Shown here piece by piece: positions 22,241-64,000 of a stretch of DNA of 64,000 nt. The notes beneath the pieces are model-generated. The model saw only the letters and a list, made by a program, of their open reading frames with translations. It was not told the origin of the DNA and made no database searches. Source of the DNA: Robiginitalea aestuariiviva (GTDB taxonomy: Bacteria; Bacteroidota; Bacteroidia; Flavobacteriales; Flavobacteriaceae). The stretch covers positions 494,965 through 558,964 of the forward strand of contig NZ_JARPUQ010000001.1 of the NCBI RefSeq assembly GCF_029537735.1, written 5' to 3'. A program made the position numbers and the translations under genes. The first letter of the stretch is position 1, and every line of letters begins with the position of its first letter.

Positions 22241-22257
22241 ATCACATTAATTTAGAT

Positions 22258-22307
22258 GGGGTACCCGACCCCGGTTATTAATTCCGGTTACAACGCGGGT
22301 AGCGTTG
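22258..22307 (-). promoter_or_regulatory. rpsP: Structured 5' leader of rpsP
   Basis: Between the likely promoter and the rpsP start are three short inverted repeats: GGGGT/ACCCC (22258-22262 with 22268-22272), CCGG/CCGG (22271-22274 with 22284-22287) and CAACGC/GCGTTG (22291-22296 with 22302-22307). The first two overlap, so they would be alternatives. Such a leader could carry autoregulation by S16 or another ribosomal protein. No known leader class was assigned. Confidence 0.35.
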
Positions 22308-44739: not shown

Positions 44740-46998
44740 ATGACCCGAATAAAAACGACCCTGGGAAGGCGCGCCTTCATCAAAAACACCAGCCTGGCCG
44801 GTGGCGGCCTGGTCCTGGGATTCAGCTGGCTGAATGCCTGCAAACCCGAACAGGCCAAAACCATGGCCGTCCTCGAAATGCCCGAGGAATGGTTCGAGAT
44901 TAACGCCTACCTGAAAATTGGGGATAATGGCCTGGCCACCATCTTTTCGCCCAACCCGGAATTCGGGCAGAATGTGATCACCTCCATGCCCATGATAGTG
45001 GCCGAGGAACTGGGTATAGCCTGGGAAAAGGTACTGGTGGAACAAGCGCCCTTCCATGTGGAAAACTACGGCCGCCAATTTACTGGTGGCAGCCAGGGCA
45101 TCCGCCGCGCCTGGGAAGGCCTGCGCATGGCGGGAGCCTCTGCCCGGCATATGCTGCGGCAGGCAGCCGCCAACGCCTGGGCGGTGTCCATGGATGAAAT
45201 CACCACCCAAGGTGGCATGCTGCACCACGCGGGCAGCGGCAAATCTGCCCATTATGGTGAGATGGCCGCAGCAGCAGCCCAACTGGAAGTACCTGAAGAA
45301 ATTGAATTGAAAACCCCGGCGGATTTCAATATTATCGGCCATTCCAAAAAGAACGTGAGAGGTCACGACATCGTAACGGGCAAACCCATATTTGGCGTGG
45401 ATTATACCCGAGAGGGCATGCTCATTGCCATGCCGGTATTCCCGCCGGCGTTCGGGATGACCTTTAAATCCATGGATGCCGAAGCCGTGAAAGCCATGCC
45501 CGGCATTCGCGATGTCTTTACCATTGAGACGCTGGAACCGGACTACCAGCGCAGTATGTTCGATACCACCACTTTTGAGCAACCCATTATCATTGTGGGG
45601 GAAACCACCTGGGCGGTGATGCAGGCCAAAAAAGCCCTGCACGCCCAATGGGAACCCTTTGAAGCCCGCACTCATACCGTAGCCGGCTGGGGCGGGGCCC
45701 AGGAAGTAACCATCCCGGCCGGGCTGGAAAACACCCGGACCCACCGGGAACAAATGGAAGCCATGGATGCCAAACCCGGCAAGGTTGCCCGGAAAGACGG
45801 AGACCCGGAAACGGCTTTTAAAAACGCCGCCAAGGTAGTGGAACGCACCTATTCCTGTCCCTTTCTGGCGCACAATTGCATGGAGCCCATGAATTTCTTT
45901 GCCCATGTAACGGAAGAAAAGGCCGAACTGGCCGGCCCGCTCCAGGCCCCCGAATTTATAGAAAACACCCTGGCCGCCCGTCTGGGGATGCCCAAAGAAA
46001 ATATAGACATTCACATGACCCGTATGGGAGGCGGGTTCGGACGGCGGGCCTACAGCACCCATGCCGTAGAGGCCGCCCTGGTTTCAAGGAAAATGAACGC
46101 CCCGGTCCGGCTCATGTACAGCCGGGAGGACGATATGGGCTTCGGTATTTACCGGCCATCCTACTTTGCCCGGTTTAAAGCGGCCCTGGATGCGGACAAC
46201 AATCTGGTGGGATATACCGTGAAGGCCGGGGGCATCCCGGAATCCCCCCTCTTTGCCAACCGCTTCCCGGCAGGAGCCGTAGACCATTATCTGGCCGAGG
46301 AATGGGACATCCCCTCCAACATCACCATTGGTGCCTTCCGGGCGCCCCGCTCCAATTTCATGGCCGGGGCGGAGCAGTCTTTCCTGGACGAAGTGGCCGA
46401 AACCGCGGGCAAGGACCCGATCGCCTTCCGTCTGGAATTACTGGAAAAGGCCAAAACCCAACCCGTTGGCGAAACCAACGATTACGATCCGGAGCGGTAC
46501 GCTGGTGTACTGGAGCTGGTGCGTGAAAAATCCGGCTGGGACACCCTCCAAAACAAAGGCAACCGGGGCGTTTCGGCCTATTTCTGCCACAACAGCTACG
46601 CCGCCCACGTGCTGGAGCTTTCCATGGAAAATGGGAAACCCCGGGTAGAAAAAGTAACCTGTGCCTTGGATTGTGGGATCGTTATTAACCCGGACGCCGC
46701 CGTCAACATGGCCGAAGGGGCCATTGTAGACGGGGTAGGCAACACCATGTTCGGCGAAATGACCTTTACCGACGGCCGGCCGGATAAGCGGAATTTTGAT
46801 ACCTATCGTATGATCCGCATGACCGAAGCACCCCGGGATATCCAGGTGCATTTTGTGCAAAACGAAATTGCCCCCACAGGGCTTGGTGAACCGCCCTTCC
46901 CGCCCATTTTCGGGGCATTTGCCAATGCGCTTTATAAAGCCACCGGGCAGCGGCAGTACCACCAGCCCTTTGTCACTGAAAGACCCTTAAAGACTTGA
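44740..46998 (+). CDS. iorB: Molybdopterin-binding large subunit, IorB-like (copy 1)
   Basis: 752 residues. The N-terminus GRRAFIKNTSLAGGG is a Tat signal, and the following LNAC could be a lipobox. The two aldehyde-oxidase-type molybdopterin domains carry RMGGGFGRR, YSREDDM, GAFRAPRSNFMAGAEQSFLDE and TGLGEPPFPP, the last holding the likely catalytic Glu. It should hydroxylate an N-heterocycle or oxidise an aldehyde in the periplasm. No FAD subunit is present, as in the Ior type, so electrons would leave by a cytochrome. Substrate unknown. Confidence 0.88.
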   Translation: MTRIKTTLGRRAFIKNTSLAGGGLVLGFSWLNACKPEQAKTMAVLEMPEEWFEINAYLKIGDNGLATIFSPNPEFGQNVITSMPMIVAEELGIAWEKVLVEQAPFHVENYGRQFTGGSQGIRRAWEGLRMAGASARHMLRQAAANAWAVSMDEITTQGGMLHHAGSGKSAHYGEMAAAAAQLEVPEEIELKTPADFNIIGHSKKNVRGHDIVTGKPIFGVDYTREGMLIAMPVFPPAFGMTFKSMDAEAVKAMPGIRDVFTIETLEPDYQRSMFDTTTFEQPIIIVGETTWAVMQAKKALHAQWEPFEARTHTVAGWGGAQEVTIPAGLENTRTHREQMEAMDAKPGKVARKDGDPETAFKNAAKVVERTYSCPFLAHNCMEPMNFFAHVTEEKAELAGPLQAPEFIENTLAARLGMPKENIDIHMTRMGGGFGRRAYSTHAVEAALVSRKMNAPVRLMYSREDDMGFGIYRPSYFARFKAALDADNNLVGYTVKAGGIPESPLFANRFPAGAVDHYLAEEWDIPSNITIGAFRAPRSNFMAGAEQSFLDEVAETAGKDPIAFRLELLEKAKTQPVGETNDYDPERYAGVLELVREKSGWDTLQNKGNRGVSAYFCHNSYAAHVLELSMENGKPRVEKVTCALDCGIVINPDAAVNMAEGAIVDGVGNTMFGEMTFTDGRPDKRNFDTYRMIRMTEAPRDIQVHFVQNEIAPTGLGEPPFPPIFGAFANALYKATGQRQYHQPFVTERPLKT

Positions 46999-47000
46999 TT

Positions 47001-49232
47001 ATGAAGCATCTCGAGGTTTCCGAAAGCCGGCGGCAGTTCCTTAAGGCCTCCAGCCTGGCCGGGGGCGGGCTACTGCTCTCCTTCAATTGGCTGGCCTCGT
47101 GCCGGTTTTCCGCAGAGGAAATGGGTGAAATGCCCAAGGAATGGTCCGAACTGAACGGATTCCTCAAAATTGCGGACAATGGGCAGGTGACCATTATGTC
47201 GCCCAACCCCGAAGGCGGGCAGAATGTAAAAACCTCCATGCCCATGATCGTTGCCGACGAACTGGATGTGGACTGGAAAAGCGTCCGTGTGGAACAGGCC
47301 CCCCTTAACCTGGATGCCTTTTCCTTCCAATGGCTGGGGGGTAGCCAGGCCATTCGCCGCGGCTGGCCCGGCCTCCGCCAAGCCGGGGCCTCCGCCCGCC
47401 TGATGTTGCGCACCGCAGCTGCACAGGCCTGGGAGGTAGACCCCGTTGAGGTCACCACCCGCAGTGGAGTCCTGGAACACCAGCCCAGCGGCCGGTCTGC
47501 CGGATATGGCGCATTTGCCGCAGCCGCTGCACTGCTACCCGTGCCGGAGGAGGTCCCGCTGAAGGAGCCCGGGGATTTTCATATTATCGGGAGTTCCCGT
47601 AAAAATGTAGATGGGCCGGAAATCGTAACCGGGAAACCGCTTTTTGGCTCAGACATCTCCGAGGAAGGCATGCTGATTGCCATGATTGTGCACCCAACCG
47701 CCTTTGGCCTGAAAATTAAAAGCGTGGACGACTCCCAGGCGCGGAACATGCCGGGCATCCGGGATATTTTCACCATTCAAATTTTGGACGAGGCCTACCA
47801 GAAAGAGTATTTCGACACCCTCACTTTTAATGAAGTGGTGGCCATTGTGGGGGATTCCACCTGGCAGGTGATGCAGGCTAAAAAGGCCCTGCGAATTACG
47901 TGCGAACCTATAGCAACCCGGGAAGAAACCCGGCTGCGTTTTGGCCAGCCGTATCCTTTTGTAACCCCTTCCGGCCTGGAATCCTCGGCCGGGCACGAAA
48001 GGCAGATGGAGGAAATGGCGGTCCGCCCGGGTGCCATCCGCCGTAAGGACGGAGACCCTGAAGCTGCCTTCCGGCGTGCCGCCCGGATTGTGGAACGGTC
48101 CTATACCGGCCCGTTTCTGGCACATAATTGCATGGAGCCGATGACCTTTTTTGCCGATGTCTCCCCTACGCATGCCCGGCTGAAAGGCCCCCTGCAGAAA
48201 CCGGAACTCACGGAAAAGGCCCTTTCCGCCCGCCTGGGGATGCCTTTGGAGCAGATCGATTTTGAAATGACCCGCCTGGGTGGCGGGTACGGCCGCCGAT
48301 CCTATGCGCATTGGGCTATAGAAGCCGCCTTGATTTCGCAGCACATGGGAGCGCCCGTTAAACTGACTTATAGCCGGGAAGACGACATGACTGCCGGTAT
48401 CTACCGGCCAGCCTACCATGTACGGTTCCGCGCCGGTCTGGATGCGGAGAATAACCTGATTGCCTTCCATGTAAAAGCCGGGGGCATCCCGGAAAGCCCC
48501 CTGGCCGCCAATCGTTTTCCGGCCGGGGCCGTGCCCCACTACCTGGCCGAGGAATGGACCCTGGACACCAACCTGACGGTAGGGTCGTTCCGCGCCCCCC
48601 GTTCCAACTTTATGGCCGCCTCAGAGCAGTCCTTCCTGGATGAGGTGGCCGAAGCCGCAGGAAAAGACCCCATCGAATTCCGTCTGGAACTATTGGAGCA
48701 GGCACTAACCAACCCCGTAGGCGAAACCAACGACTACGATGCAGCCCGGTACGCCGGCGTCCTGGAACTGGTGCGTGAAAAATCGGGGTGGGCCAATCCA
48801 CCCGATGGCTTGTACCGGGGCGTATCGGCTTATTTCTGCCATAACTCCTACGCCGCCCAGGTCCTGGATCTGGTGATGGAAGATGGGAAGCCCCGGGTAC
48901 AAAACGTAACCTGTGCCCTGGACTGCGGCATCGTCATTAATCCGGACGCCGCCCGCAACCTGACCGAGGGCGGGATCGTAGACGGAATTGGCAATGCCCT
49001 CTTTGCCGAACTCCCCTTTGTGGATGGGGTGGCCCAGAAGGACAACTTCGACCGCTACCGCATGATCCGCATGGCGGAAGCACCTAAAGCCATAGACGTC
49101 CATTTTGTGGAAAACGGGATGGATCCGACCGGGTTGGGAGAACCCATGTTCCCCCCCGTATTTGCAGCTTTGGCCAATGCCCTGTACCAGGCTACCGGCC
49201 GCAGGCATTACCGCCAGCCTTTCCTGGGCTAA
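47001..49232 (+). CDS. Molybdopterin-binding large subunit, IorB-like (copy 2)
   Basis: 743 residues from the ATG at 47001, two bases after the copy 1 stop; a TTG at 46995 would overlap it. Tat signal ESRRQFLKASSLAGGG and a Cys at the end of the hydrophobic core. The same motifs as copy 1 occur in order (RLGGGYGRRSY, YSREDDM, GSFRAPRSNFMAASEQSF, TGLGEPMFPP). It has no small subunit of its own, so it must share copy 1's or copy 2's iron-sulfur protein or form a heterodimer of large subunits. Confidence 0.85.
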   Translation: MKHLEVSESRRQFLKASSLAGGGLLLSFNWLASCRFSAEEMGEMPKEWSELNGFLKIADNGQVTIMSPNPEGGQNVKTSMPMIVADELDVDWKSVRVEQAPLNLDAFSFQWLGGSQAIRRGWPGLRQAGASARLMLRTAAAQAWEVDPVEVTTRSGVLEHQPSGRSAGYGAFAAAAALLPVPEEVPLKEPGDFHIIGSSRKNVDGPEIVTGKPLFGSDISEEGMLIAMIVHPTAFGLKIKSVDDSQARNMPGIRDIFTIQILDEAYQKEYFDTLTFNEVVAIVGDSTWQVMQAKKALRITCEPIATREETRLRFGQPYPFVTPSGLESSAGHERQMEEMAVRPGAIRRKDGDPEAAFRRAARIVERSYTGPFLAHNCMEPMTFFADVSPTHARLKGPLQKPELTEKALSARLGMPLEQIDFEMTRLGGGYGRRSYAHWAIEAALISQHMGAPVKLTYSREDDMTAGIYRPAYHVRFRAGLDAENNLIAFHVKAGGIPESPLAANRFPAGAVPHYLAEEWTLDTNLTVGSFRAPRSNFMAASEQSFLDEVAEAAGKDPIEFRLELLEQALTNPVGETNDYDAARYAGVLELVREKSGWANPPDGLYRGVSAYFCHNSYAAQVLDLVMEDGKPRVQNVTCALDCGIVINPDAARNLTEGGIVDGIGNALFAELPFVDGVAQKDNFDRYRMIRMAEAPKAIDVHFVENGMDPTGLGEPMFPPVFAALANALYQATGRRHYRQPFLG

Positions 49233-49350
49233 AGCTCCCGGGCAATTGGAACCAACCCCCTGATGCACAGCTGGCACCGGCCGGCAAGCGTTTCTATTTA
49301 AAACGATTCTTAGGGGTATATTCTTTACTTTCAGGGCAAGAATCCGAATT

Positions 49351-49809
49351 ATGGCACAATTTACCCTGAACATCAATGGCACATCGCGGGAGGTGGACGT
49401 AGACCCCACCACCCCGCTGCTCTGGGTCCTGAGGGACCACCTGAACCTTGTTGGCACCAAGTACGGATGCGGCATTGCCCAATGCGGGGCGTGTACCGTA
49501 CATGTTGGCGATGTGGCCACACGCTCCTGTATGTTGCCCGTTTCCTCGGTAGGCAACCAGAACGTCACCACTATAGAAGGCCTTTCTGAAACGGGAGACC
49601 ACCCGGTGCAACAAGCCTGGCTGGAAGCAGACGTACCCCAGTGTGGGTACTGCCAGGCCGGGCAAATCATGACCGCTACGGCCCTGCTCAAGCAAAACCC
49701 GAATCCCTCGGACGCAGAAATCGAAATGGCCATGAATGGCAACATTTGTCGCTGCGGCACCTATGTGCGCATCAAGGAAGCCATTAAGAACGCGGCATCC
49801 CAATCCTGA
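49351..49809 (+). CDS. iorA: (2Fe-2S) subunit of an isoquinoline 1-oxidoreductase-like molybdoenzyme (copy 2)
   Basis: 152 residues, nearly a duplicate of the protein at 44246, with all eight cluster cysteines conserved. DNA similarity is also high, including the start region, pointing to recent duplication or gene conversion. A 118-base gap with possible promoter elements (TATATTC, TACTTTCA) precedes it, so this second block may be transcribed separately. Confidence 0.9.
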
Positions 49810-49828
49810 ACCTTAATATCCCTGAAAC

Positions 49829-52027
49829 ATGACACTGGTCAAAACACAATACAACCGCCGTTCATTCCTAAAGGTTTCCACTGCTGCTGGCGGGGGTATG
49901 CTGATCGGATTTAACTGGCTCATGAGCTGCACCCGGTCCGATGAAAAACCGGCTGTTGCCATCCCGAACGAATGGTTCGAAATTAACGGCTATATCAAAA
50001 TAGGGGATACCGGGATGGTAACCCTCTATAACCCCAATCCCGAAATTGGCCAGAACGTAATGACCTCCATGCCCATGATTGTAGCGGAAGAACTGGATGT
50101 GCCGTGGGATCATGTCATTGTGGAACAGGGCATGCTGGATTCGGATGCCTTTAAAAACCCGCAGTTTGCCGGGGGAAGCCTTTCGATAATGCTGGGGTGG
50201 GAGCCCTTGCGTATGGCCGGGGCCACCGGCAAGCGAATGCTGCTGGAAGCGGCTGCAAAGGAATGGGGCGTTAGCGTTTCTGATCTTACGGCCAGCCAGG
50301 GCATCATCAAAGAAACCCAGGGCACCCGGCAAATCGGATATGGGGAAATTGCCTCCAAGGCCGTGGGCATGGAGATTCCGGAGGAAGTAGCCCTGAAGGA
50401 CCCCAAGGATTTTACCCTGATCGGAACGCCGCAAAAAAATGTGGTAGGGACGGAGATTGTAACCGGGAAACCCCTCTTTGGGCTGGATTACCAGCGCGAA
50501 GGCATGAAACTGGCCATGATTGTACAACCACCTGCCTTTGGGCTGACTCCTACCGGGTTTAACCGGGACGAAATCCTGGCCATGGCCGGGGTGCAGGATG
50601 CGTTTATGATCGACACGGGCCTGGAAAGCGAACTCTTCGGCAATGTGAATGCCTTTCCCAAATGCATTGCCCTGGTGGGGGATACCACCTGGGAACTCAT
50701 GCAGGCCAAAAAGGCCGTGCGGGCAACCTATGAAACCACCGGCGCATTGGAGGATTCCAGTATGCACGACCGTAGGTTGCAAGAGGCCCTGGCCGCCGGG
50801 GAACCCAGGGATACCCGCCGGGATGGCGATCCGGAAGCCGCCTTTGCCGGGGCGTCGAAAATCATCGAACGGACCTATACCTCTCCCTTCCAGGCCCACA
50901 ACACCCTGGAGCCGATGAACTTCTTTGCACATGTAACAGAGGGTCAGGCCGAACTCTTTGGGCCAACCCAGACCCCGAATGCCTTACGCGATCTGGCAGC
51001 CTTATTGCTGGAAATGGACAAAGAGCAAATCAGCGTGGGCATGACGCGCATGGGAGGGGGCTTCGGCCGCAGGCTGTATACGCATTTTGGCCTGAGGGCC
51101 GCCGCCATTTCCAAACAGGCCGGTGTTCCCATTAAACTGATTTATACCCGCGAAGACGATATGACCAACGGCGTGTACCGACCGGCCTATCGCTCCACCT
51201 ACAAAGCCGGGCTGGACGCGGACAACAATCTGGTTGCCTTTTCGGTTCGGGGTACCGGCCTGCCCGAAGGCGCCATTTTCCCGAACCGTTTTCCCGCCGG
51301 GGCCGTAGATCATTATCTGGCGGAAAACATCATGTCCGAAACTAATATTTCCACCGGCGCCTGGCGGGCGCCGCGTTCACATTTCACTGCCGGGGCGGAG
51401 CAGTCCTTCCTGGACGAAGTCGCAGAGGCCGCGGGGAAAGACCCCATTGACTTTCGCCTGGAACTGCTCTCTCGCGCTGCATCGGACCGGGTTGGTGAGC
51501 AGTTCGAATACGACGCCGAGCGCTATGCCGGAGTCCTGAAACTGGTCAGGGAAAAATCTGGCTGGGGCACCCAGACGCCCGGGATTTACCGGGGGGTGGC
51601 CGCGTACTTCTGCCACAACAGCTATGTGGCTGAAGTCTTTGACCTGGCCATGGAAGACGGGCAGCCCAAGGTGAAAAAAGTCTGGTGTGCGGTAGACTGC
51701 GGGATTGTAATCAACCCGGAAGGTGCGGTCAATATGATCCAGGGGGGCGTGGTAGATGGCATAGGCCATGCCATGTATAGTGAGCTCACCTTTGAGAACG
51801 GGGCACCCCAACAACAGAATTTTGACCGTTACCAACTGATCCGCCACCTGCAGGCACCGGAGGCCATCGAGGTCTTCTTTGTGGAAAGCGACGTGGCGCC
51901 CACAGGCCTGGGCGAACCCGGATTACCGCCCGCCGTGGGAGCCATGGCCAGTGCCCTTTACAAGGCTACCGGGAATCGGGTATACCATGTGCCGTTTGCC
52001 ACGGACAAACCACCCCTGGTGGGATAG
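49829..52027 (+). CDS. iorB: Molybdopterin-binding large subunit, IorB-like (copy 3)
   Basis: 732 residues, 19 bases after the second small subunit. Tat signal NRRSFLKVSTAAGGG, then LMSC. RMGGGFGRRLY, YTREDDM, GAWRAPRSHFTAGAEQSF and TGLGEPGLPP match the family. It is the most divergent of the three large subunits (for example QGGVVDGIGHAMY in place of the usual EG block), so it probably has its own substrate. A strong terminator follows. Confidence 0.88.
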   Translation: MTLVKTQYNRRSFLKVSTAAGGGMLIGFNWLMSCTRSDEKPAVAIPNEWFEINGYIKIGDTGMVTLYNPNPEIGQNVMTSMPMIVAEELDVPWDHVIVEQGMLDSDAFKNPQFAGGSLSIMLGWEPLRMAGATGKRMLLEAAAKEWGVSVSDLTASQGIIKETQGTRQIGYGEIASKAVGMEIPEEVALKDPKDFTLIGTPQKNVVGTEIVTGKPLFGLDYQREGMKLAMIVQPPAFGLTPTGFNRDEILAMAGVQDAFMIDTGLESELFGNVNAFPKCIALVGDTTWELMQAKKAVRATYETTGALEDSSMHDRRLQEALAAGEPRDTRRDGDPEAAFAGASKIIERTYTSPFQAHNTLEPMNFFAHVTEGQAELFGPTQTPNALRDLAALLLEMDKEQISVGMTRMGGGFGRRLYTHFGLRAAAISKQAGVPIKLIYTREDDMTNGVYRPAYRSTYKAGLDADNNLVAFSVRGTGLPEGAIFPNRFPAGAVDHYLAENIMSETNISTGAWRAPRSHFTAGAEQSFLDEVAEAAGKDPIDFRLELLSRAASDRVGEQFEYDAERYAGVLKLVREKSGWGTQTPGIYRGVAAYFCHNSYVAEVFDLAMEDGQPKVKKVWCAVDCGIVINPEGAVNMIQGGVVDGIGHAMYSELTFENGAPQQQNFDRYQLIRHLQAPEAIEVFFVESDVAPTGLGEPGLPPAVGAMASALYKATGNRVYHVPFATDKPPLVG

Positions 52028-55421: not shown

Positions 55422-56762
55422 ATGAACGAGGCCACGTTGCAACGCATTATCAAGCGGATCAATGAGGGCCAGTGCCTGGTGATCCTCGGGCCGCAATTAT
55501 TGAGTCCGGATGGCACCGGCATCCATACCCTGCTGAACCAGCACCTGACCGAAACCCTGGGTAGCAAGGTGCGTTGCTACGACGACCAGGAATTCATCAG
55601 CTTCGATGCCAAAACCCGGGAATTGCTCATAGAAGATGAGGTCTCGGACTTCTTCGAGGGCCTGCAGGCCAACGACCTGTACCGCAAGATCGCGGACATC
55701 CCCTTTCCCCTGATCATCAATACTGCCCCGGATGTGACCCTGAATCAGATCCTGAAGGAAAAGGGCATAGGGTTCGACTACGACTTTTACCATAAGGGAA
55801 GGGCCCCCAAGGAACCAGCCAAAACCCAGGCCCGTTACCTCTACAACATTTTTGGCGACCACCGGGAACTGGATTCCATGATCCTCACCTACCGGGACCT
55901 CTACGAATACCTCCACAGCATTATGGGAGACAACGGCCTGAAGATCAAAAGCCTGCTTCGGGAATCCAAAACCGTCCTCTTTTTCGGCTTCAGTTTCGAC
56001 AAATGGTATTTCCAGCTGCTGCTCTGGCTGATGCAGATTGAAGACAAGCTGCTGAATTCCCACGACATCAACCAGGAGAGTATCAAACACCTCTACCACG
56101 AAGAATTCGATGTGGAATTTTTCGAGAACAGCACCGCGGCCGAGATTATAGACGCCCTGCACAAGGCCCTGGAAGCAGGGCAGATCCAGGAGCCCGAAGC
56201 CCAGAAAGTGGCACCGACTGAAATCTACATTTCCTATGCCTGGAAAGGCGCCAGCGAGGAAATGGCCAACCTGATCGAAACCACCCTGCAGGCCAATGAA
56301 ATCCACTTGGTACGGGACAAGAACGACCTCGGCTATAAAGGCGGGATCACAGAATTCATGAACCGGATTGGGCAGGCCAAGGGAGTAGTGGTGATTGTGA
56401 GCGACAAGTACCTCAAATCCGGGTACTGCATGTACGAACTCTCCGAGATTTACCGGCATGCAGACTTCGAGGGCCGCATTTTTCCCATCGTGCTGGAGGA
56501 TGCCATGATCTTCGATGTAAACAAGCGCCTGGAATACAAACAGGAATGGAAACAGAAGCTGGATGCCCTGGATGAGGAAATCAAACGTTCCGGGGCTGAG
56601 GCCCTGCAGACCATAGGGGCCGAGTACGAGAAATTCAAGCGCATCTACGACGATTTTGACCGCATCATCAACAAGGTGTCCGATATGAATGTACTGACCC
56701 CGGACATCCATAAAAGCACCCATTTCGAAGACCTGATCAAAGCCATCCGGCAAAACACCTAA
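55422..56762 (+). CDS. SIR2-like/TIR domain fusion protein (candidate immune NADase)
   Basis: 446 residues, soluble. The N-terminal ~250 residues are SIR2-like: CLVILGPQLLS (18-28), LIINTAPD (97-104), YNIFGD (141-146), an ILTYRDLYEYL block (154-164) and LFFGFSFDKWYF (187-197). The position of the sirtuin catalytic His (LHG) is Phe144, so this half may bind but not cleave NAD+. Residues 266-430 are a TIR domain: EIYISYAW, YLKSGYCMYELSEIY with the likely catalytic Glu339, and FPIVLED. TIR and SIR2 effectors deplete NAD+ in anti-phage systems. The STAND NTPase gene begins 21 bases later, so a sensor-effector pair is likely. Confidence 0.85.
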   Translation: MNEATLQRIIKRINEGQCLVILGPQLLSPDGTGIHTLLNQHLTETLGSKVRCYDDQEFISFDAKTRELLIEDEVSDFFEGLQANDLYRKIADIPFPLIINTAPDVTLNQILKEKGIGFDYDFYHKGRAPKEPAKTQARYLYNIFGDHRELDSMILTYRDLYEYLHSIMGDNGLKIKSLLRESKTVLFFGFSFDKWYFQLLLWLMQIEDKLLNSHDINQESIKHLYHEEFDVEFFENSTAAEIIDALHKALEAGQIQEPEAQKVAPTEIYISYAWKGASEEMANLIETTLQANEIHLVRDKNDLGYKGGITEFMNRIGQAKGVVVIVSDKYLKSGYCMYELSEIYRHADFEGRIFPIVLEDAMIFDVNKRLEYKQEWKQKLDALDEEIKRSGAEALQTIGAEYEKFKRIYDDFDRIINKVSDMNVLTPDIHKSTHFEDLIKAIRQNT

Positions 56763-56783
56763 AACCCGCGAACCGCAACCACC

Positions 56784-59150
56784 TTGGAAAAGCAATTCAG
56801 ATATCCCGGCGCCCGCCCCTTCTCCGCAAAGGACGGCAACCTGTTTTTCGGACGGGAACAGGATATCCGTGCGCTTGCCAACCGGATTGCCCTGGAACCC
56901 CTGGTGGTGCTTTTCGGAAAATCGGGCTATGGAAAAACCTCCCTGCTGCAGGCCGGGGTATTGCCCATACTGCGGGAACGGGAGAACCACCGAACCATTG
57001 AACTGGACCTCAAGGAACCCGAAGCCCACCCCATAGACCTGGTGATCCACCAATTGCAGGAGCATCTGGGCGGGGCCCCATACCTGGGCGATCGGCTGAA
57101 TATTGCGGCCGAGCTCCCTGACGACCTGGTGGCCGTACTTTGGTGCACCCTGAAATCCATACAACTGGCGCACCCGGAACATACGTGGAACACCCTGGTC
57201 TTTGACCACTTCGAAGACCTTTTCAACAGTCACCAGCCCCATGTGGAATCCCTGGGCCGGGCCCTGTCCGAAATGCTGCAAAAACAGCCCCCGAAGCCCA
57301 TCCGGCGGATCATCAAAACCCATATGAAATCCGGGGCGGACAGCTTTAGCGAAGCCGAACTGGAGGCCTGGTTTGCCCCCCTGAACCTGAAAGTGGTCCT
57401 CTCGGTCCGCCATGACCACCTGGGGTCCCTGGACGGGCTGAAACCCTATATCCCCTATATCTTCAGGCACACTTACGAACTCAAGCCCCTGAGCAGTTTG
57501 CAGGCCCTGGAGGCCCTGGAACGCCCGGCGGCCCTGGAAGGGGACTTTGCTTCGCCTGCATTCACCTATCAGCCCAAAGCCCTTGAAAAAATTGTCAGCA
57601 GCCTGAGGGACAAACGCACCCAGCGCATCGAGACCTTCCAGCTGCAACTCATTGCCCAGCATGCGGAAGAGGCCATGATGGCCCAGGCCGCGGCCAACCC
57701 ACAGGCGAAAGCCTTCACCCTTTCCGCCAAAGACCTGGGCAATCCGGATGAAATCTTTGAAAACCACTACGAGGAAATTATTCTGGGGCTGCCCCGCAAA
57801 AACCGGGGCAAGGCGCGCAGCCTGGTTGAGAAACGACTGATTCTGAACGGGAATCGCATTCCCCTGCCGGAGCAGATGATTACGGAACAATACCACATCC
57901 CCCTGGGGCTGGTTAACACCCTGGTAGAGCGACGCCTGGTGCGGTCCCAGCTCAATTCGGTGGGCACCACCAGCTATGAGCTCAGCCACGACACCCTGGT
58001 GCCTCCCATCCTGAAAACAGCTCGGCGCCACCGGCAGAAAGTCCTCTGGAGGCGGCTGCGCATTGCCGGGTTACTACTGTTGCTGGCCATTATCGGGTTC
58101 GCTTCCTGGGGCACCTACCAGATGTCCCGGGCAGACGACCTTGCCAAAGATGTAGACAGCCTTCGCCAGGCACTGGACCAATACAAGGACAGCATACGGG
58201 TGGTGGAAGTGCCCGGAGAGGTAGAGGTCATTGACCGATTAAATATTGAAATCCAGCAACAGCGGGATACGCTGGACAGCCTGCGCAACCGGCTTGCCGA
58301 GGCGGCAACGCCCACCACGGGCATTGGGCCGGTTATCGGAACAGACCCTCCGGATACGGAGGTAATCACAGGCCCCGTTGGCCCGCCTATAGACGACCGC
58401 ATTTTGGTGAGGCTCCCTGCCCAGGTGCATTCGGAATGGATCGAAAAACTGGACCGGCTAAGGACCAAGCTCAGCGCAGACCCGGATGCGGAGTACCGCA
58501 GCATTGACGGTTTTTCGGGAAGTTCAGACACCCGCCCACCGGAGGGCTGGGACCTGGACCCCGAGGCCACCCACCTGTTGGCCATCCGGGTAAAAACGGG
58601 AAGGCGGGTCTTTGACGCCCGCAACCCCAAAGCCTTCTTTGTCTTGCTCGCCCAGGGCAAGGCCTATAAATTCCTGGGGGGCACGGGCTTTTATCAGACC
58701 GAAGGCGACCTGGCCTTTTTGCCCAAAGGGCAGCACCGCATGAAACTGGGCACGCCCAGGGCAGACCGGGTTCTGGTGCCCTATTCGGAAGGAGTACTGC
58801 TGATCCGGGATATGGACCGCAATGGCGAGCTCTCCGAAACCGATGCCCGCAATGGCCTGGTTAGAAACCCGGTATCGGACCTTTCCATCCGCTGGTTTAC
58901 CGGCGGCAACGCCATAGATAAAGCAGGAGAACAACTGATTTTTAACCAGTACTACATCAATTCGGACGACCGCATCCGGGCTCTGGCAGGTGGGTCGCAA
59001 GGCGCTTATGACCGGTTTGTCGGGATCCTTTGGGGGCAGCCCCAGGGCCGCCCCATCTATTACACCGTCCTGGACCTGGATGAATTCGATTCGGTAGACC
59101 GGCAGGAAATAACCCGCGATATTGACCGCCTCACCACAGGTTCCCGCTAA
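56784..59150 (+). CDS. Membrane-anchored STAND (nSTAND1-type) NTPase with extracytoplasmic domain
   Basis: 788 residues from a TTG at 56784; no ATG is near. YPGARPFSAKDGNLFFGRE opens the nSTAND1 module, with Walker A G45-K-S-G-Y-G-K51-T52 and Walker B VFDHFEDLF. A winged-helix-like region follows. One membrane helix lies at 427-445, then a coiled coil (SLRQALDQ and DSLRNRLAEA) and a beta-rich C-terminal domain with an EF-hand-like loop (DMDRNGELSETD, 676-687). The layout implies a cytoplasmic NTPase switch linked to an envelope sensor or anchor. Paired with the SIR2-TIR gene, it could gate its activation. Ligand unknown. Confidence 0.82.
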   Translation: MEKQFRYPGARPFSAKDGNLFFGREQDIRALANRIALEPLVVLFGKSGYGKTSLLQAGVLPILRERENHRTIELDLKEPEAHPIDLVIHQLQEHLGGAPYLGDRLNIAAELPDDLVAVLWCTLKSIQLAHPEHTWNTLVFDHFEDLFNSHQPHVESLGRALSEMLQKQPPKPIRRIIKTHMKSGADSFSEAELEAWFAPLNLKVVLSVRHDHLGSLDGLKPYIPYIFRHTYELKPLSSLQALEALERPAALEGDFASPAFTYQPKALEKIVSSLRDKRTQRIETFQLQLIAQHAEEAMMAQAAANPQAKAFTLSAKDLGNPDEIFENHYEEIILGLPRKNRGKARSLVEKRLILNGNRIPLPEQMITEQYHIPLGLVNTLVERRLVRSQLNSVGTTSYELSHDTLVPPILKTARRHRQKVLWRRLRIAGLLLLLAIIGFASWGTYQMSRADDLAKDVDSLRQALDQYKDSIRVVEVPGEVEVIDRLNIEIQQQRDTLDSLRNRLAEAATPTTGIGPVIGTDPPDTEVITGPVGPPIDDRILVRLPAQVHSEWIEKLDRLRTKLSADPDAEYRSIDGFSGSSDTRPPEGWDLDPEATHLLAIRVKTGRRVFDARNPKAFFVLLAQGKAYKFLGGTGFYQTEGDLAFLPKGQHRMKLGTPRADRVLVPYSEGVLLIRDMDRNGELSETDARNGLVRNPVSDLSIRWFTGGNAIDKAGEQLIFNQYYINSDDRIRALAGGSQGAYDRFVGILWGQPQGRPIYYTVLDLDEFDSVDRQEITRDIDRLTTGSR

Positions 59151-59165
59151 TTCCCAATTGCTTTC

Positions 59166-59196
59166 AAAAAACAAAGCGACACCCAACGGGTGCCGC
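59166..59196 (-). terminator. Intrinsic terminator of the fasciclin gene
   Basis: On the minus strand GCGGCACCC-GTT-GGGTGTCGC forms a 9-bp stem with one wobble, followed by TTTGTTTTTT. It ends about 30 bases after the fasciclin stop and may also slow transcription from the plus-strand STAND gene. Confidence 0.85.
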
Positions 59197-59225
59197 CTTG
59201 CACAAATCAACAACCAAACGACTCC

Positions 59226-59792
59226 CTAGGAAGCAGGGAGTATTACCGTATCTACCACATGGATTACGCCATTGGACTGGTTTACATCCGCAATGCGCAC
59301 AGTGGAAGTGTTGCCGGAGGCATCCCGCACCACCAGGCTTTTGCCCTGCTGCATCACGCTGAGGCTGCCGCCCTGGGCTGTGGTAAGGGTGGCCTTACCC
59401 CCTCCTTTACGGACCAATTCCATAAGGGCTGTGGCGGAATAACGCCCCGGGACCACATGATAGGTCAGCACGGCCTGTAATTTGGCCTTATTCTCCGGAG
59501 CCAGCAGCATGGGAATAGTTCCCTCGGGCAACTTATCAAAAGCTGCATTGGTAGGGGCAAAGACCGTGAAAGGGCCCTCGCTTTGGAGGGTGGGCACCAG
59601 GTCTGCCGCCTTTACGGCAGCCACCAGGGTGGTGTGATCTTTGGATTCCACGGCATTGGCAACAATATCCTTGGTGGGGTACATGGGGGCACCACCCACC
59701 ATTTTTACCTGGGCCGAAGCCAGATGGCCGGCAAACAGCAGGCCGAAAAGCATAAAACAGGTACTCTTTACTTGTGGTTTAAAGGAAAACAT
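59226..59792 (-). CDS. Exported fasciclin (FAS1) domain protein
   Basis: 188 residues. A Sec signal ends ASAQ, followed by a single FAS1 domain with the H1 block GPFTVFAPTNAAFDKLP and the H2-like block NGVIHVVDTVILP. FAS1 proteins mediate adhesion or bind small ligands at the surface. It interrupts the presumed conflict genes on the opposite strand and has its own terminator; a link to them is not evident. Confidence 0.92.
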   Translation of the reverse strand: MFSFKPQVKSTCFMLFGLLFAGHLASAQVKMVGGAPMYPTKDIVANAVESKDHTTLVAAVKAADLVPTLQSEGPFTVFAPTNAAFDKLPEGTIPMLLAPENKAKLQAVLTYHVVPGRYSATALMELVRKGGGKATLTTAQGGSLSVMQQGKSLVVRDASGNTSTVRIADVNQSNGVIHVVDTVILPAS

Positions 59793-60015
59793 AGGTTTTT
59801 GTTTTAGGATTACATCCTTACCTACGCAGCTTTCCGGTACGGGTTTGGTTTCCGGTCAAAAAAAAAATTTCCGACAAAGGGTGCGCATAGCCACCCCCTT
59901 TCCGTTTTGGGAGTAAACACCTAACACCAATCAAGGAAAGAAGTCAGTGTCCAGATTTAAGAATATGGAATCCTGCCGCCTGGGGCTGGATACCGGATAG
60001 GTGAATTGCCTCGGA

Positions 60016-60342
60016 TTAGATATCGACGTCGATGCCGGCTGCGGAAAATACCCTGTAGATAAACTGGATCTCCTTTTCGTCCACATCCCCATCTGCATTG
60101 GCGGCCTCGTTCATCAGGCGGGCCAGGGCTTGCTTCTGGGCGTCCGGCATGGCGCGCAAGACCCCAAGCGCCTCCCCGGGTTCGGCCTTGCGGGCCTCCA
60201 GGATAAGTTCCGGCTTAAAATCCAGGGCGTCTGCCAGGCGGTCCATAAACCGCACTTCACCCCTTTTGATCTGATTATCCATTTGAATGACCTCGTCGAT
60301 AGCTTTGAGGACGGCCAATTTTTCCAGGAGATTGAATTGCAT
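60016..60342 (-). CDS. TerB-like protein A
   Basis: 108 residues from the ATG at 60342 (MQFNLLEKLAVLKAID); a longer frame to 60393 is unlike its paralogue. All-helical, with the TerB acidic turn NADGDVDEKEIQFIYRVF. TerB-like domains (tellurite-resistance/phage-defence context, DjlA) bind metals or act as adaptors near membranes. It is a tandem paralogue of the gene at 60486. The 143-base gap between them has overlapping GC hairpins. Confidence 0.75.
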   Translation of the reverse strand: MQFNLLEKLAVLKAIDEVIQMDNQIKRGEVRFMDRLADALDFKPELILEARKAEPGEALGVLRAMPDAQKQALARLMNEAANADGDVDEKEIQFIYRVFSAAGIDVDI

Positions 60343-60485
60343 AAATAGAAGACTAAGGTTAAGGCAGGCGCAAGCAGGGCCTGCGCCGGACACGAAGATA
60401 GAACTTTCCCCGCTACCGGAGAAGCCATAAAGGCAACCCTGCCGGACTGCAATGCGTTTCCAGGGTATCCTTTGGGCGAAAAAAC

Positions 60486-60815
60486 CTAGAGGCGCTCCGT
60501 TTCGATGCCCACCCGCTCAAAAATATTCGCAATCAGCTGCAGCTCCCTGTCGGAGACCCGGCCATCAGAACTGGCTGCTTCCTGCAGCATAACCCCCAGG
60601 GCGTATTTTTTACTTTCCGGCATGGCCTTAAGGGTGGTATAGGCCTTCTCATGATCCAAATCCCGGGCTTGCTTCAGGAGGTTGAGATCAAATTGCAGGA
60701 CCGCGGCAAGCTGGGTCAGGAACCGGGCTTCCCCTTCATATACCCGGTCATCGGAACGCATAATGGTATCGACGGACTTTAGGACGGCCATTTGTTCGGC
60801 CAGATTGAAATCCAT
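60486..60815 (-). CDS. TerB-like protein B
   Basis: 109 residues, MDFNLAEQMAVLKSVDTIM at the start, closely parallel to TerB-like protein A. The acidic turn is SSDGRVSDRELQLIANIF. Same length and spacing of motifs as its paralogue, so an old tandem duplication. Separate start and no overlap. Possible adaptor in the conflict locus. Confidence 0.75.
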   Translation of the reverse strand: MDFNLAEQMAVLKSVDTIMRSDDRVYEGEARFLTQLAAVLQFDLNLLKQARDLDHEKAYTTLKAMPESKKYALGVMLQEAASSDGRVSDRELQLIANIFERVGIETERL

Positions 60816-60891
60816 AGGCGAGGATTTAAAGTGTACACGTAAACATCCGAAGGCCCATATTTCGAGGCTATCGGTAAGGAATATCGGCCCC

Positions 60892-61176
60892 CTACTTCGA
60901 TTTTACCCCTGGGCCGCCCTTGGATTTAACTCCAGGGCCGCTCTTAGATTTCACCCCGGGACCACTCTTGGATTTAACGCCCGGACCAGACTTGGACTTC
61001 ACTCCGGGGCCGCTCTTGGATTTTACTCCGGGACCACTTTTGGACTTGACCCCCGGGCCGCTCTTGGATTTTACTCCGGGGCCACTTTTGGATTTTACCC
61101 CCGGGCCCGACTTGGATTTCACCCCCGGACCGGACTTGGACTGGAGGCTTGGTTTTGGTTGTTTTGATTCAGACAT
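60892..61176 (-). CDS. Octapeptide-repeat basic protein (SKSGPGVK x10)
   Basis: 94 residues. After MSESKQPKPSLQ the chain is ten copies of SKSGPGVK (Gly for Ser in the last) and a final SK. Charge is strongly positive, with only Lys as ionic residue in the repeat; it must be intrinsically disordered. No signal peptide. I recognise no family; the composition recalls nucleic-acid-binding or histone H1-like tails. The non-repetitive N-terminus and ATG favour the minus strand as coding. Codon variants between units (GTC/GTT and so on) suggest the protein repeat is kept by selection. Confidence 0.65.
   Translation of the reverse strand: MSESKQPKPSLQSKSGPGVKSKSGPGVKSKSGPGVKSKSGPGVKSKSGPGVKSKSGPGVKSKSGPGVKSKSGPGVKSKSGPGVKSKGGPGVKSK
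60901..61140 (-). repeat. 24-bp tandem repeat, ten units
   Basis: Ten in-frame units of 24 bases encode SKSGPGVK. Units differ mainly at synonymous third positions. Copy number is likely to vary between strains by slippage or recombination. Confidence 0.9.
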
Positions 61177-61281
61177 GAGTTCCCCAATTAGTTACTATAT
61201 TCACTATATTAGTTAAAATAAGGGAGGCAACCAAACAAATCCGGGGGTTTTAGACCCTCAAATTCAGCTTTTAACGGGGAC

Positions 61282-63270
61282 ATGAAATTTAAAAAATTTA
61301 TCAGGGAATGCCGGGAGCACAATGTCCTGAAAAACCTCTCAATTTACATCGTATCCAGTTGGGTCCTGCTGCAGGTCATCGCCCTGATCGCTGAGCCACT
61401 GGGGTTTTCCACCAAGGCCGTTGCATACGGCCTGATCCTGCTGCTTATCGGGTTCCCCCTCTACATCTACGGGGTCTGGCGTTTTCAACTGGCGCCCCAA
61501 CTTTCCCAGGCCGGGCCGGAGCCTGAAGACGGAGCCGCAACCGCTGGCAAATCCCCGAAATCCCCTTTCCAAAAACTGTATTTCTCCTTCCTCGCCATTA
61601 TTACTCTGGTCTGTACGGGAATTGTGCTGGCCCTGGTGAATCAGAACCTGGTACGGCCAGGGGTTTCCCTGCAGGCCCCTACGGGAAACAAGATTGCCGT
61701 ACTGCGTTTTGAAAACCTTACGGGGGACCCTTCCAAAAATCTTATAGGGGAAATGGCCGTAGACTGGATTATACATGGCATTACCCGCAATAAACTCGGG
61801 CAGGTGATCTCCCCGGAGATTATAGAGGATTATTCCAAAGTACTCCGGGCGAGTATGGTGCCGGATCCCTCCCAGGTGCAGGTGACCGAATACCTGAAAC
61901 CCTCCAAAATCATTGAAGGGGATTATTACCTGAGCGAGGGACGGATGCTCTTCCAGTGCTCCATCACGGACGAAGTAATGAACCGCACCCTGGTATCCTT
62001 CGAACCCGTTTCCTGCGATGCGGACACCCCCTTGGAATGTATAGAGGCCCTTAGCCAGCGTATTCTCGGTTTCTTTATCGACGAGGAACGGGCCGCCGAA
62101 AGCCTGGAGGAACACCCCCCTAAATACGAGGCTTATGAGTTATTCAGCAAGGCCAAGACCTGGTGGAATGAAGACGACCAGCAATACCTGAAACTCCTGA
62201 ACGAAGCCATTGCGGCAGATCAGGATTTTTTTGAACCCAAGGCCTTTCGGTTTATGTATTATTTCAATCGGGGAATCTATCCAACGGCAGATTCCCTGTT
62301 GCGGCAAATGAAACAGGAATCCGGCCTGTACTTTCGGCAACAAATCCTGCTGAACCTCTACGAAGCCCTGCTGGAAGGCAACCACCGCAATGCCTATAAA
62401 TACCAGGAGCAGGAATACCACATTACCCCCATGCATCTGGAGACCAATTCCAATATGATGGTCTTTTCCCTGCAGTTCACCAACCGGCCGGAGGCTATCG
62501 ACAGCCTGTACCGGGAGATCGATATGTCCGAAATGGACCTCTCCCAATGTGCTTTTTGCGTGGAGCGCTACAAGATCAAGGCGATGTCCGATATTGACCT
62601 CGGCAACGAACAAGCAGCCATCAGGTTACTGGAACCCCTGGCCCGGCAGGATGGTTTCTGGATCCTGAAAAAAATTCTCCTCAGGGCCTATGTCCGCTCC
62701 GGGCAGTGGGAAGAAGGGCGCCGCCAACTCGAAACCTGGCGCATTGTCGCCCCGGTGGATACCCAAAAGGACCTGATGCTTTTCGGGGCCAGGGAGTTCC
62801 TGAGGGAGGGGAGATCAAAGGAGGCTCGTGAAATCCTGAAGCAGGCTCTGGAGCTGCCTTTTTCGGACAATCCCGTCGATGCCTATCTGAAGGGGGAATT
62901 GCTATTTTACAATGGAAACTACCAGGAAGCCCTGCCTTATCTGGAAGAAGGATACGGGGCCGATCCTGCAGATTTCAATTACGGGGCCCTGCTGGCCATC
63001 AGCCTCGAAAAACTGGGGCGGGCTGCCGAAGCGCAGCAGCAGTTGCAACAAATGGAAAGCCTGAAGGCCCCATACCAGTATGGGGAATTGCCCTATTCCC
63101 TGGCCATGTATTACGCGGCCACAGGGCAGGTTGAAGCCTGCCTGGACCAGTTGCTAAAGGCCATTGCGGAAGGCCATTGGTACGAGACCAGTGCCTTCCA
63201 GAATGATCCGCTGCTCCGACCGGTTTACAACACCCCCGGATTTGAGGCCGTAATGAATTATTGGAAATAA
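61282..63270 (+). CDS. Membrane TolB-N-like/TPR protein
   Basis: 662 residues. Two membrane helices near the N-terminus (YIVSSWVLLQVIALIAEPL and the next, GLILLLIGFPLYIYGVW) and a third near 97-117. Then a TolB-N/FlgO-like fold (KIAVLRFENLTGDPSKNL and IIEGDYYL), as in the TPR proteins attached to adenylate cyclases and CadC-like regulators. The C-terminal half is helical TPR (EGRSKEAREILKQAL, YNGNYQEALPYLEEGY). There is no cyclase or DNA-binding domain. It precedes a caspase-like gene by 10 bases, so TPRs may dock that peptidase or its substrate. Confidence 0.8.
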   Translation: MKFKKFIRECREHNVLKNLSIYIVSSWVLLQVIALIAEPLGFSTKAVAYGLILLLIGFPLYIYGVWRFQLAPQLSQAGPEPEDGAATAGKSPKSPFQKLYFSFLAIITLVCTGIVLALVNQNLVRPGVSLQAPTGNKIAVLRFENLTGDPSKNLIGEMAVDWIIHGITRNKLGQVISPEIIEDYSKVLRASMVPDPSQVQVTEYLKPSKIIEGDYYLSEGRMLFQCSITDEVMNRTLVSFEPVSCDADTPLECIEALSQRILGFFIDEERAAESLEEHPPKYEAYELFSKAKTWWNEDDQQYLKLLNEAIAADQDFFEPKAFRFMYYFNRGIYPTADSLLRQMKQESGLYFRQQILLNLYEALLEGNHRNAYKYQEQEYHITPMHLETNSNMMVFSLQFTNRPEAIDSLYREIDMSEMDLSQCAFCVERYKIKAMSDIDLGNEQAAIRLLEPLARQDGFWILKKILLRAYVRSGQWEEGRRQLETWRIVAPVDTQKDLMLFGAREFLREGRSKEAREILKQALELPFSDNPVDAYLKGELLFYNGNYQEALPYLEEGYGADPADFNYGALLAISLEKLGRAAEAQQQLQQMESLKAPYQYGELPYSLAMYYAATGQVEACLDQLLKAIAEGHWYETSAFQNDPLLRPVYNTPGFEAVMNYWK

Positions 63271-63280
63271 ACACCCGCAT

Positions 63281-64000
63281 ATGACCCTCCTGCAAAACGC
63301 CTATGCCCTGCTGATCGGCATCTCTTATGAAGACGGCCTCGATACCATTGGAGACGCACAGGATATTGCGGCCCTGCTTCAGGACCCGGCCCTTTGCGGG
63401 TATCTCCCGGAGAACGTAATTCTGGTAACGGGCGAGCAGGCGGATCGCAACGGCATCCTGTCTGCCTTCGACCAGCTGATCGAAAGGACCGATGCCAATT
63501 CCTCCGTTTTCCTTTATTATTCCGGCCACGGCGATGTACTGGATGGGATTTTTCATTTTGTGCCCCATGGCATCGTGGCCGGTATGGAGTACGACGATTA
63601 TACTTCCGCCTGGGTAACCGCAGAGGATATCCGGGACAAAATTGACCGCCTGCAAACCCGCAGGCTGATCTTCTTTATGGATTGCTGCCACGCCACCGGA
63701 ATGGCCGTTGGCGGTTTCAGCCCGCGCCTGGGTCCTGGACAGCCGGAGGAAGCCCCCCAGGCTGCTTTCGACAAACTGGAAGGCCTGGCCCAAAAGGTAG
63801 ATAACGAACGCGGGATATCCGTGATAGCCTCCTGTAAGGAAGAACAGGAATCCTACCAGCTGGACGGAGACCGCAACAGCTTGTTCACCAAGCACCTGCT
63901 GCTGGCTCTGAAGGGGGAACACCTGGAACAGGTCCGGGATCCCTACGTCCGGATCCTGGAGGTGGCCGGGTACCTCTTGCGCGTTATCCCAGAAACCATT
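63281..64000 (+). CDS. Caspase-like peptidase (3'-truncated by window edge)
   Basis: The frame is open from the ATG at 63281 to the window end, 240 residues. The p20-type caspase fold is complete: NAYALLIGISY at the start, the catalytic His83 in YYSGHGD and the catalytic Cys136 in FFMDCCHATG, followed by ISVIASCKEEQESYQ and SLFTKHLLLAL. Clan CD peptidases of this kind (metacaspase/C14-like) cleave after basic or acidic residues and act in bacterial suicide defence. Ten bases after the membrane TPR gene, so co-expressed. Any C-terminal partner domain is beyond the window. Confidence 0.88.
   Translation, partial: MTLLQNAYALLIGISYEDGLDTIGDAQDIAALLQDPALCGYLPENVILVTGEQADRNGILSAFDQLIERTDANSSVFLYYSGHGDVLDGIFHFVPHGIVAGMEYDDYTSAWVTAEDIRDKIDRLQTRRLIFFMDCCHATGMAVGGFSPRLGPGQPEEAPQAAFDKLEGLAQKVDNERGISVIASCKEEQESYQLDGDRNSLFTKHLLLALKGEHLEQVRDPYVRILEVAGYLLRVIPETI

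Follow-up and report, generated by a model that had tools for sequence, protein, structure and literature searches.

A repeat-peptide gene accompanies a membrane TPR protein and a metacaspase-like protease in Robiginitalea aestuariiviva and related Flavobacteriaceae

In the genome of Robiginitalea aestuariiviva, a small gene that encodes a repeat peptide (RPT) is located next to the genes of a membrane TPR protein and a metacaspase-like protease, and a counterpart accompanies nearly every such TPR-caspase pair examined in the family. These genes are referred to as module B. It appears about evenly balanced whether module B is a TIR-linked metacaspase-like system in which RPT acts as a multivalent substrate or decoy. 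The analysed window comprises 64,000 nucleotides (bases 494965–558964 of a 1.50-Mb contig; genome size 3.22 Mb), and the whole genome was used beyond the window end. The region is best explained as two separate conflict-type modules, A and B, beside core genes (Table 1).

Table 1. Features of the region in window coordinates.
Feature	Position	Strand	Basis
SIR2-like + TIR protein, 446 aa (module A, gene 1)	55422..56762	+	Pfam SIR2_2, TIR_2; homologues
nSTAND1 NTPase, 788 aa (module A, gene 2)	56784..59150	+	Pfam nSTAND1; TM scan; adjacency
Fasciclin-domain protein	59226..59792	-	Pfam
TerB-like protein 1	60016..60393	-	Pfam
TerB-like protein 2	60486..60815	-	Pfam
RPT, 94 aa, about ten SGPGVKSK octapeptides (module B)	60892..61176	-	repeat array; counterparts
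Conserved intergenic element (C)ACTATATTAGTTAAAA (module B)	61202..61218	.	upstream-region comparison
TPR protein, 662 aa (module B)	61282..63270	+	Pfam; hydropathy scan
Metacaspase-like protease (module B)	63281..64000, runs on to 65527	+	Pfam Peptidase_C14; genome extension
SLATT (DUF4231) gene, outside the window	65796-66248	-	genome extension + family match

Two modules beside core genes

The first-pass annotation had named SIR2-TIR, STAND, fasciclin, two TerB-like, TPR and caspase-like proteins, and Pfam matches bear out each of these calls. It had also suggested a possible single multi-module locus, with the fasciclin gene as a reason for caution. Synteny among the ten genomes of the genus argues against this, and one six-family locus is rejected. 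The SIR2-TIR/nSTAND1 pair is present in three of the ten genomes (G000, G007 and G004) and the caspase in four (G000, G007, G002 and G003). The TPR orthologue is found in the latter four and, without a caspase, in G004. Module A occurs together with TPR and caspase in two genomes only. Because their presence differs in this way, modules A and B are regarded as separate. G005 apparently has an empty site: the gene found at the cassette border elsewhere lies only 106 bp away from a TerB gene, and the cassette is missing between the two.

TerB-like matches are present in all ten genomes, whether these carry the modules or not. The two TerB-like genes are core, genus-wide and outside both modules, and a role as conflict-system component is rejected since the gene is not co-inherited with the conflict genes. 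No clustered counterpart of the fasciclin gene was found in the other genus regions read, and the gene looks like a bystander. Thus, the alternative of unrelated conserved blocks holds for the TerB and fasciclin genes and only partly for module A.

Two genes had been overlooked in the first reading, the octapeptide-repeat gene and the SLATT gene just beyond the window. SLATT, TIR-like and nSTAND1-like genes (named by resemblance) also lie beside the caspase of G002 and G003, on the other strand. One homologue of this type of TIR-like protein has a TIR_2 match. The TIR-like and nSTAND1-like genes match those of module A only weakly and are not their orthologues. Elsewhere in the window, a gene run at 44740–52027 resembles large and small subunits of molybdenum hydroxylases, and a match to the S16-Flavobacteria ribosomal leader RNA is located at 22246–22282 on the minus strand (barely over the gathering score, E 0.23).

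In module A, SIR2-TIR adjoins nSTAND1 in six of seven genomes; the seventh copy is broken off at a contig end. The nSTAND1 protein has one predicted transmembrane segment and a C-terminal domain. By analogy it may act as the sensor, with SIR2-TIR as the acting or signaling component. The earlier proposal that the latter cleaves NAD+ probably stands for the TIR half, which was aligned to plant TIRs and retains the catalytic Glu (E339) in all seven proteins. For the SIR2 half it probably does not. In 7/7 homologues NT[AS]PD and N[IL]FGD occupy the places which we presume to be those of the catalytic Asn and His (the alignment held no solved SIR2). The SIR2 half therefore looks catalytically dead, and an active SIR2 NADase is unlikely.

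In STAND-based defence systems of the Avs/AVAST type, an effector domain is fused ahead of the STAND NTPase. Module A likewise combines a STAND NTPase with an effector, but here nSTAND1 bears a transmembrane segment and the effector-like SIR2-TIR is encoded by a separate gene. The nSTAND1 domain covers residues 7–406 of 788, and no Pfam match to a fused effector domain was found. For this comparison PADLOC gave only weak matches to mad8 and LmuB. It also gave a weak match to ThsA of type I Thoeris across the SIR2 half (E 8e-5); module A differs from ThsA in that the expected catalytic Asn and His are not seen, as described above.

That SIR2-TIR, STAND, TerB, TPR and caspase act as one layered response is very improbable. 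The modules are separable in the genus and TerB-like genes are genus-wide, although the genes are close together here and, of the five sampled genomes in which SIR2-TIR is full-length, four encode the caspase too (44/397 overall; Fisher p 6e-4, kinship ignored). In two of these four genomes (G254 and G270, both draft assemblies) the two genes are on different contigs.

Composition of module B

Following the caspase gene past the window end, as the first-pass annotation had proposed, completes a protein of 748 residues. The caspase domain is followed by an alpha/beta-hydrolase domain (PGAP1/DUF676) and a C-terminal TPR-S domain. The latter is said to go back to work of Burroughs and Aravind in 2020, and the protease shares it with TPR-S effector proteins (Pfam PF20308). 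The motifs SGHG and DCCH, which contain the His-Cys pair, are kept. The closest solved sequences are metacaspases and, for the hydrolase part, the phospholipase PlaB. A structural model is weak (pLDDT 67, pTM 0.40); its closest folds are MALT1 and yeast metacaspase. Residues D25 and D134 align with metacaspase Asp residues which we take to form the S1 pocket for basic residues. Because of this match the protease is expected to cut after Lys or Arg. The domain match to the EACC1-associated caspases (NCBIfam NF047832; E 1.2e-18) shows a similar caspase domain, but its score of 67.3 bits is under the curated cut-off for membership of 140.

The Ser nucleophile of the hydrolase is replaced by Gly in all four Robiginitalea proteins, which makes an active lipase arm unlikely in this genus. 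G222 and G359 show the same replacement, whereas the Ser is retained in most of the other relatives of the hydrolase type for which the search pattern matched.

An alignment search of 397 family genomes detected the caspase in 44 of them; these belong to 35 of the 237 genera sampled. Sorted by hand, 33 of these genomes have the hydrolase type, 7 a short type without hydrolase and 4 the caspase domain only. Stretches were read around 40 caspase places, with G172, G351 and G368 left out. In a phylum sample of 395 genomes, 27 genomes gave matches to the caspase protein at E 1e-20. Only those of G000 and G178, both in the family, are full-length; of the remaining 25, six extend across the hydrolase and the C-terminal part and the others across single parts. 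The six genomes of the former kind (6/395; L196–L201), outside the family, have this match without a caspase, and an 'MPFG' family protein follows it in five of the six. In some genomes a second copy of the caspase or of the TPR-caspase pair lies nearby (L121, L123 and L128). As for mobile cargo, which was rejected, caspase matches were present in 15 plasmid records, none covering 80%, and in no phages.

The TPR protein has three N-terminal transmembrane segments in a hydropathy scan, in agreement with the membrane nature assigned to it earlier, and a TPR superhelix at the C terminus. The label 'TolB-N' has no Pfam or NCBIfam match. The TPR protein is present in 40 and the caspase in 44 of the 397 genomes, both together in 37 (Fisher p 2e-41, kinship ignored). 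The TPR partner of G270 (L109:6354-8606) begins with a guanylate cyclase domain in place of the N-terminal transmembrane part (Pfam match at E 2.4e-14), hinting that the input domain is swappable. In 16 pairs a small transmembrane protein, MID, is encoded between the TPR and caspase genes.

The RPT gene and the TPR-caspase operon are transcribed divergently. Between them, mostly 60–65 bp ahead of the TPR start, lies ACTATATTAGTGAAAA or a near copy of it. The element was found within two mismatches in 29 of the 41 pairs compared with 1 of 352 background upstream regions; the other 12 pairs lack it at this threshold. The exact 16-mer occurs in 4 of 279 family genomes, and in three of the four its position corresponds to the cassette; a reversed control occurs in 2. 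The core CACTA-TAT-TAGTG reads as an inverted repeat. The element is proposed to serve both RPT and TPR as promoter or operator.

The repeat peptide

The array of [S/T]GPGVKSK octapeptides extends from 60895 to 61131 on the minus strand, and its DNA copies are 76% alike. Codon differences between neighbouring units are mainly synonymous (48 synonymous vs 11 nonsynonymous). In 20 analysable arrays, 683 synonymous differences stand against 320 nonsynonymous ones, with the nonsynonymous prevailing in four (G312, G222, G244 and G150). Judged from these codons, the cell probably translates RPT in this frame, and selection probably acts on the peptide.

In the genus regions first read, the array was confined to the four genomes that have the caspase. 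When all ten genus genomes were searched, these four matched with E values no higher than 1.3e-30, and the next best place elsewhere reached 0.004. In the family, 41 TPR-caspase pairs in 39 genomes were examinable, the genus included. A counterpart of RPT stands at 40 of them, 36 detected by script and the remaining four by inspection (G086 has two of these, G017 and G301b one each), and the start-to-start distance of RPT and TPR is 100–113 bp in 35 of these 40. None was found at the pair of G174, where the TPR gene is seemingly in pieces. A strict criterion, fixed after the first examples were known, picks out a counterpart at 34 of the 41 pairs and at none of the 346 other genes in these loci. 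No RPT was found at the TPR-only genomes G061 and G276 (G393, with a cut contig, was left out), nor do G206 and G378 have one at their second TPR gene. In G004, an RPT-like ORF of 29 aa with the appearance of a relic lies 106 bp upstream of the TPR orthologue (L021:1501-3489); perhaps this is a decaying cassette. Taken together, a cassette that includes the RPT family is well supported.

The RPT units are 7 to 14 residues long and loosely follow SKxGxx[IV]xPK. They are rich in Gly, Lys, Ser and Pro, and aromatic residues are nearly absent. Copy numbers range from 1 to over 30 among relatives. Within one genome the units are near-uniform; between genera they differ strongly. Lys or Arg is present in all 39 RPT examined. 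In G221, where the TPR gene is farther from the caspase, the RPT is an acidic version.

These features bear on a reading in which RPT is a pro-form that the caspase cuts into many identical short peptides acting on the cell or its neighbours. The near-identical short units, the ubiquitous basic residue and the copy-number range agree with it. We consider it improbable, since no exporter or modification gene was noticed in the cassettes read, the units diverge strongly between genera and some RPT consist of a single unit.

The RPT motif recurs in some membrane partners. The MID linker carries the RPT unit of its own genome in 5 of 16 cases, all from one group (groups of genomes were set by inspection, without a tree), and a lax K[SDEG] is found by eye at the aligned place of all 16 linkers. 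The seven short-caspase pairs without MID have a cytosolic loop insert in the TPR protein with [SAT]K[SD], which is clearly RPT-like in four and loosely so in three. Over all TPR loops, this motif is present in 11 of 24 without MID and in none of 16 with MID. Counted as 5-mers common to the own RPT, the sharing is 5/16 for MID, compared with 9% with the RPT of others. It is 2/39 for TPR (1.2% background), 1/39 for the caspase (1.7%) and 1/25 for TIR (1%), so that motif sharing with caspase or TIR is at background level. In the four Robiginitalea cassettes, no partner with a clearly shared RPT motif was found. As far as these comparisons go, the sharing with membrane partners is real and confined to part of the relatives.

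In another reading RPT is a docking scaffold, bound but not cut by TPR or TPR-S, through which the caspase is recruited to its membrane partner. The similar motifs in linkers of membrane partners in two groups of genomes and the resemblance of the TPR part of a weak fold model to the peptide-binding LGN/Pins fit this idea. By reasoning only, a free RPT of many units should compete against membrane recruitment, and we regard a docking scaffold as quite unlikely.

The TIR link and the possible function of module B

Outside the genus, a TIR profile detects a TIR gene directly after the caspase, on the same strand and at most about 310 bp away, in 24 of 40 loci; this is a lower bound for nearby TIR genes because the profile misses known ones in the genus and in L110. 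By inspection, the catalytic Glu is present in eight aligned downstream TIRs. Among 74 scanned proteins from the neighbourhood of the cassette, hand-picked from 148 printed and 213 listed to thin look-alikes, 14 match TIR_2. None of the four Robiginitalea cassettes, that of the window included, has a TIR gene directly after the caspase. The position of the TIR genes suggests that TIR and caspase probably form one pathway. These TIR genes and the co-occurrence of full-length SIR2-TIR with the caspase speak for a link between the NAD+ and protease arms, which the first-pass annotation had taken for layers; they suggest one signaling chain more than two layered effectors.

The same data bear on the possibility that the protease system of module B responds to the envelope or to stress, is mainly vertically inherited and has no relation to phage defence. 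This would suit the three transmembrane segments of the TPR protein, the recurrence of housekeeping neighbours (ribosomal protein L20 in 3 of the 74 scanned proteins) and the lack of a phage match. We hold it to be unlikely in view of the TIR genes that adjoin the caspase and of the patchy distribution in family and genus. Module B likely serves defence.

Type IV Thoeris (Rousset et al. 2025) is described in PMC12847820 as a TIR system in which N7-cADPR switches on a protease of caspase type. Module B resembles it in the His-Cys pair of the caspase and in a TIR with catalytic Glu. A TIR gene right behind the caspase-family gene is a resemblance found in 24 of the 40 loci outside the genus and in none of the four Robiginitalea cassettes. 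Module B differs in the additional RPT gene, membrane TPR protein and shared intergenic element, in the alpha/beta-hydrolase insert of the caspase (and in TPR-S, its status in type IV aside), and, in the window, in a caspase without an adjoining TIR gene. Plausibly, module B works like type IV Thoeris. The excerpts of PMC12847820, PMC8195603, PMC7159879, PMC13373217 and PMC13232231 contain no mention of a repeat-peptide partner. Titles and abstract openings of the open-licence PMC literature gave nothing relevant to RPT, and no description of a TPR-S system with RPT or the TPR membrane partner was found in the literature searched.

If module B is a TIR-linked protease system with RPT as substrate or decoy, its course may be as follows. 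Upon infection, a TIR protein would make an NAD-derived signal. Its source would be the gene downstream of the caspase in the related loci and, here, perhaps SIR2-TIR/nSTAND1. The signal would bind TPR-S and switch the protease on, which would then cut after Lys or Arg. RPT would soak up basal protease activity as a substrate or docking decoy and thereby set a threshold; this decoy role is a testable guess. Lys before Pro is a poor cleavage site, and several RPT units have Lys directly before Pro. Such units, the single-unit RPT and the acidic RPT of G221 count against RPT as substrate or decoy. The proposal as a whole is further weakened by the Robiginitalea cassettes, which show neither an adjoining TIR gene nor a partner with a clearly shared motif, by the low 5-mer sharing, by the four arrays richer in nonsynonymous differences, by the 12 pairs lacking the element at two mismatches, and by the outcome of the phage and plasmid comparison.

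A more far-reaching version is that some TIR-caspase systems encode their own substrate sponge, whose units copy a motif of the membrane target and whose copy number sets the death threshold. The units, uniform in each genome and different between genera, suggest that the protease pocket has evolved in step with the target linker and the sponge. We put this forward tentatively and consider it doubtful.

How bacterial caspases are silenced and what they target are largely open questions, for which RPT offers a candidate substrate or inhibitor. The series of RPT copy numbers is a natural test set. Furthermore, the cassette connects TIR genes with a metacaspase-like, TPR-S-bearing protease that occurs in 35 of the 237 genera sampled. 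Small low-complexity genes of this kind are easily overlooked in defence surveys.
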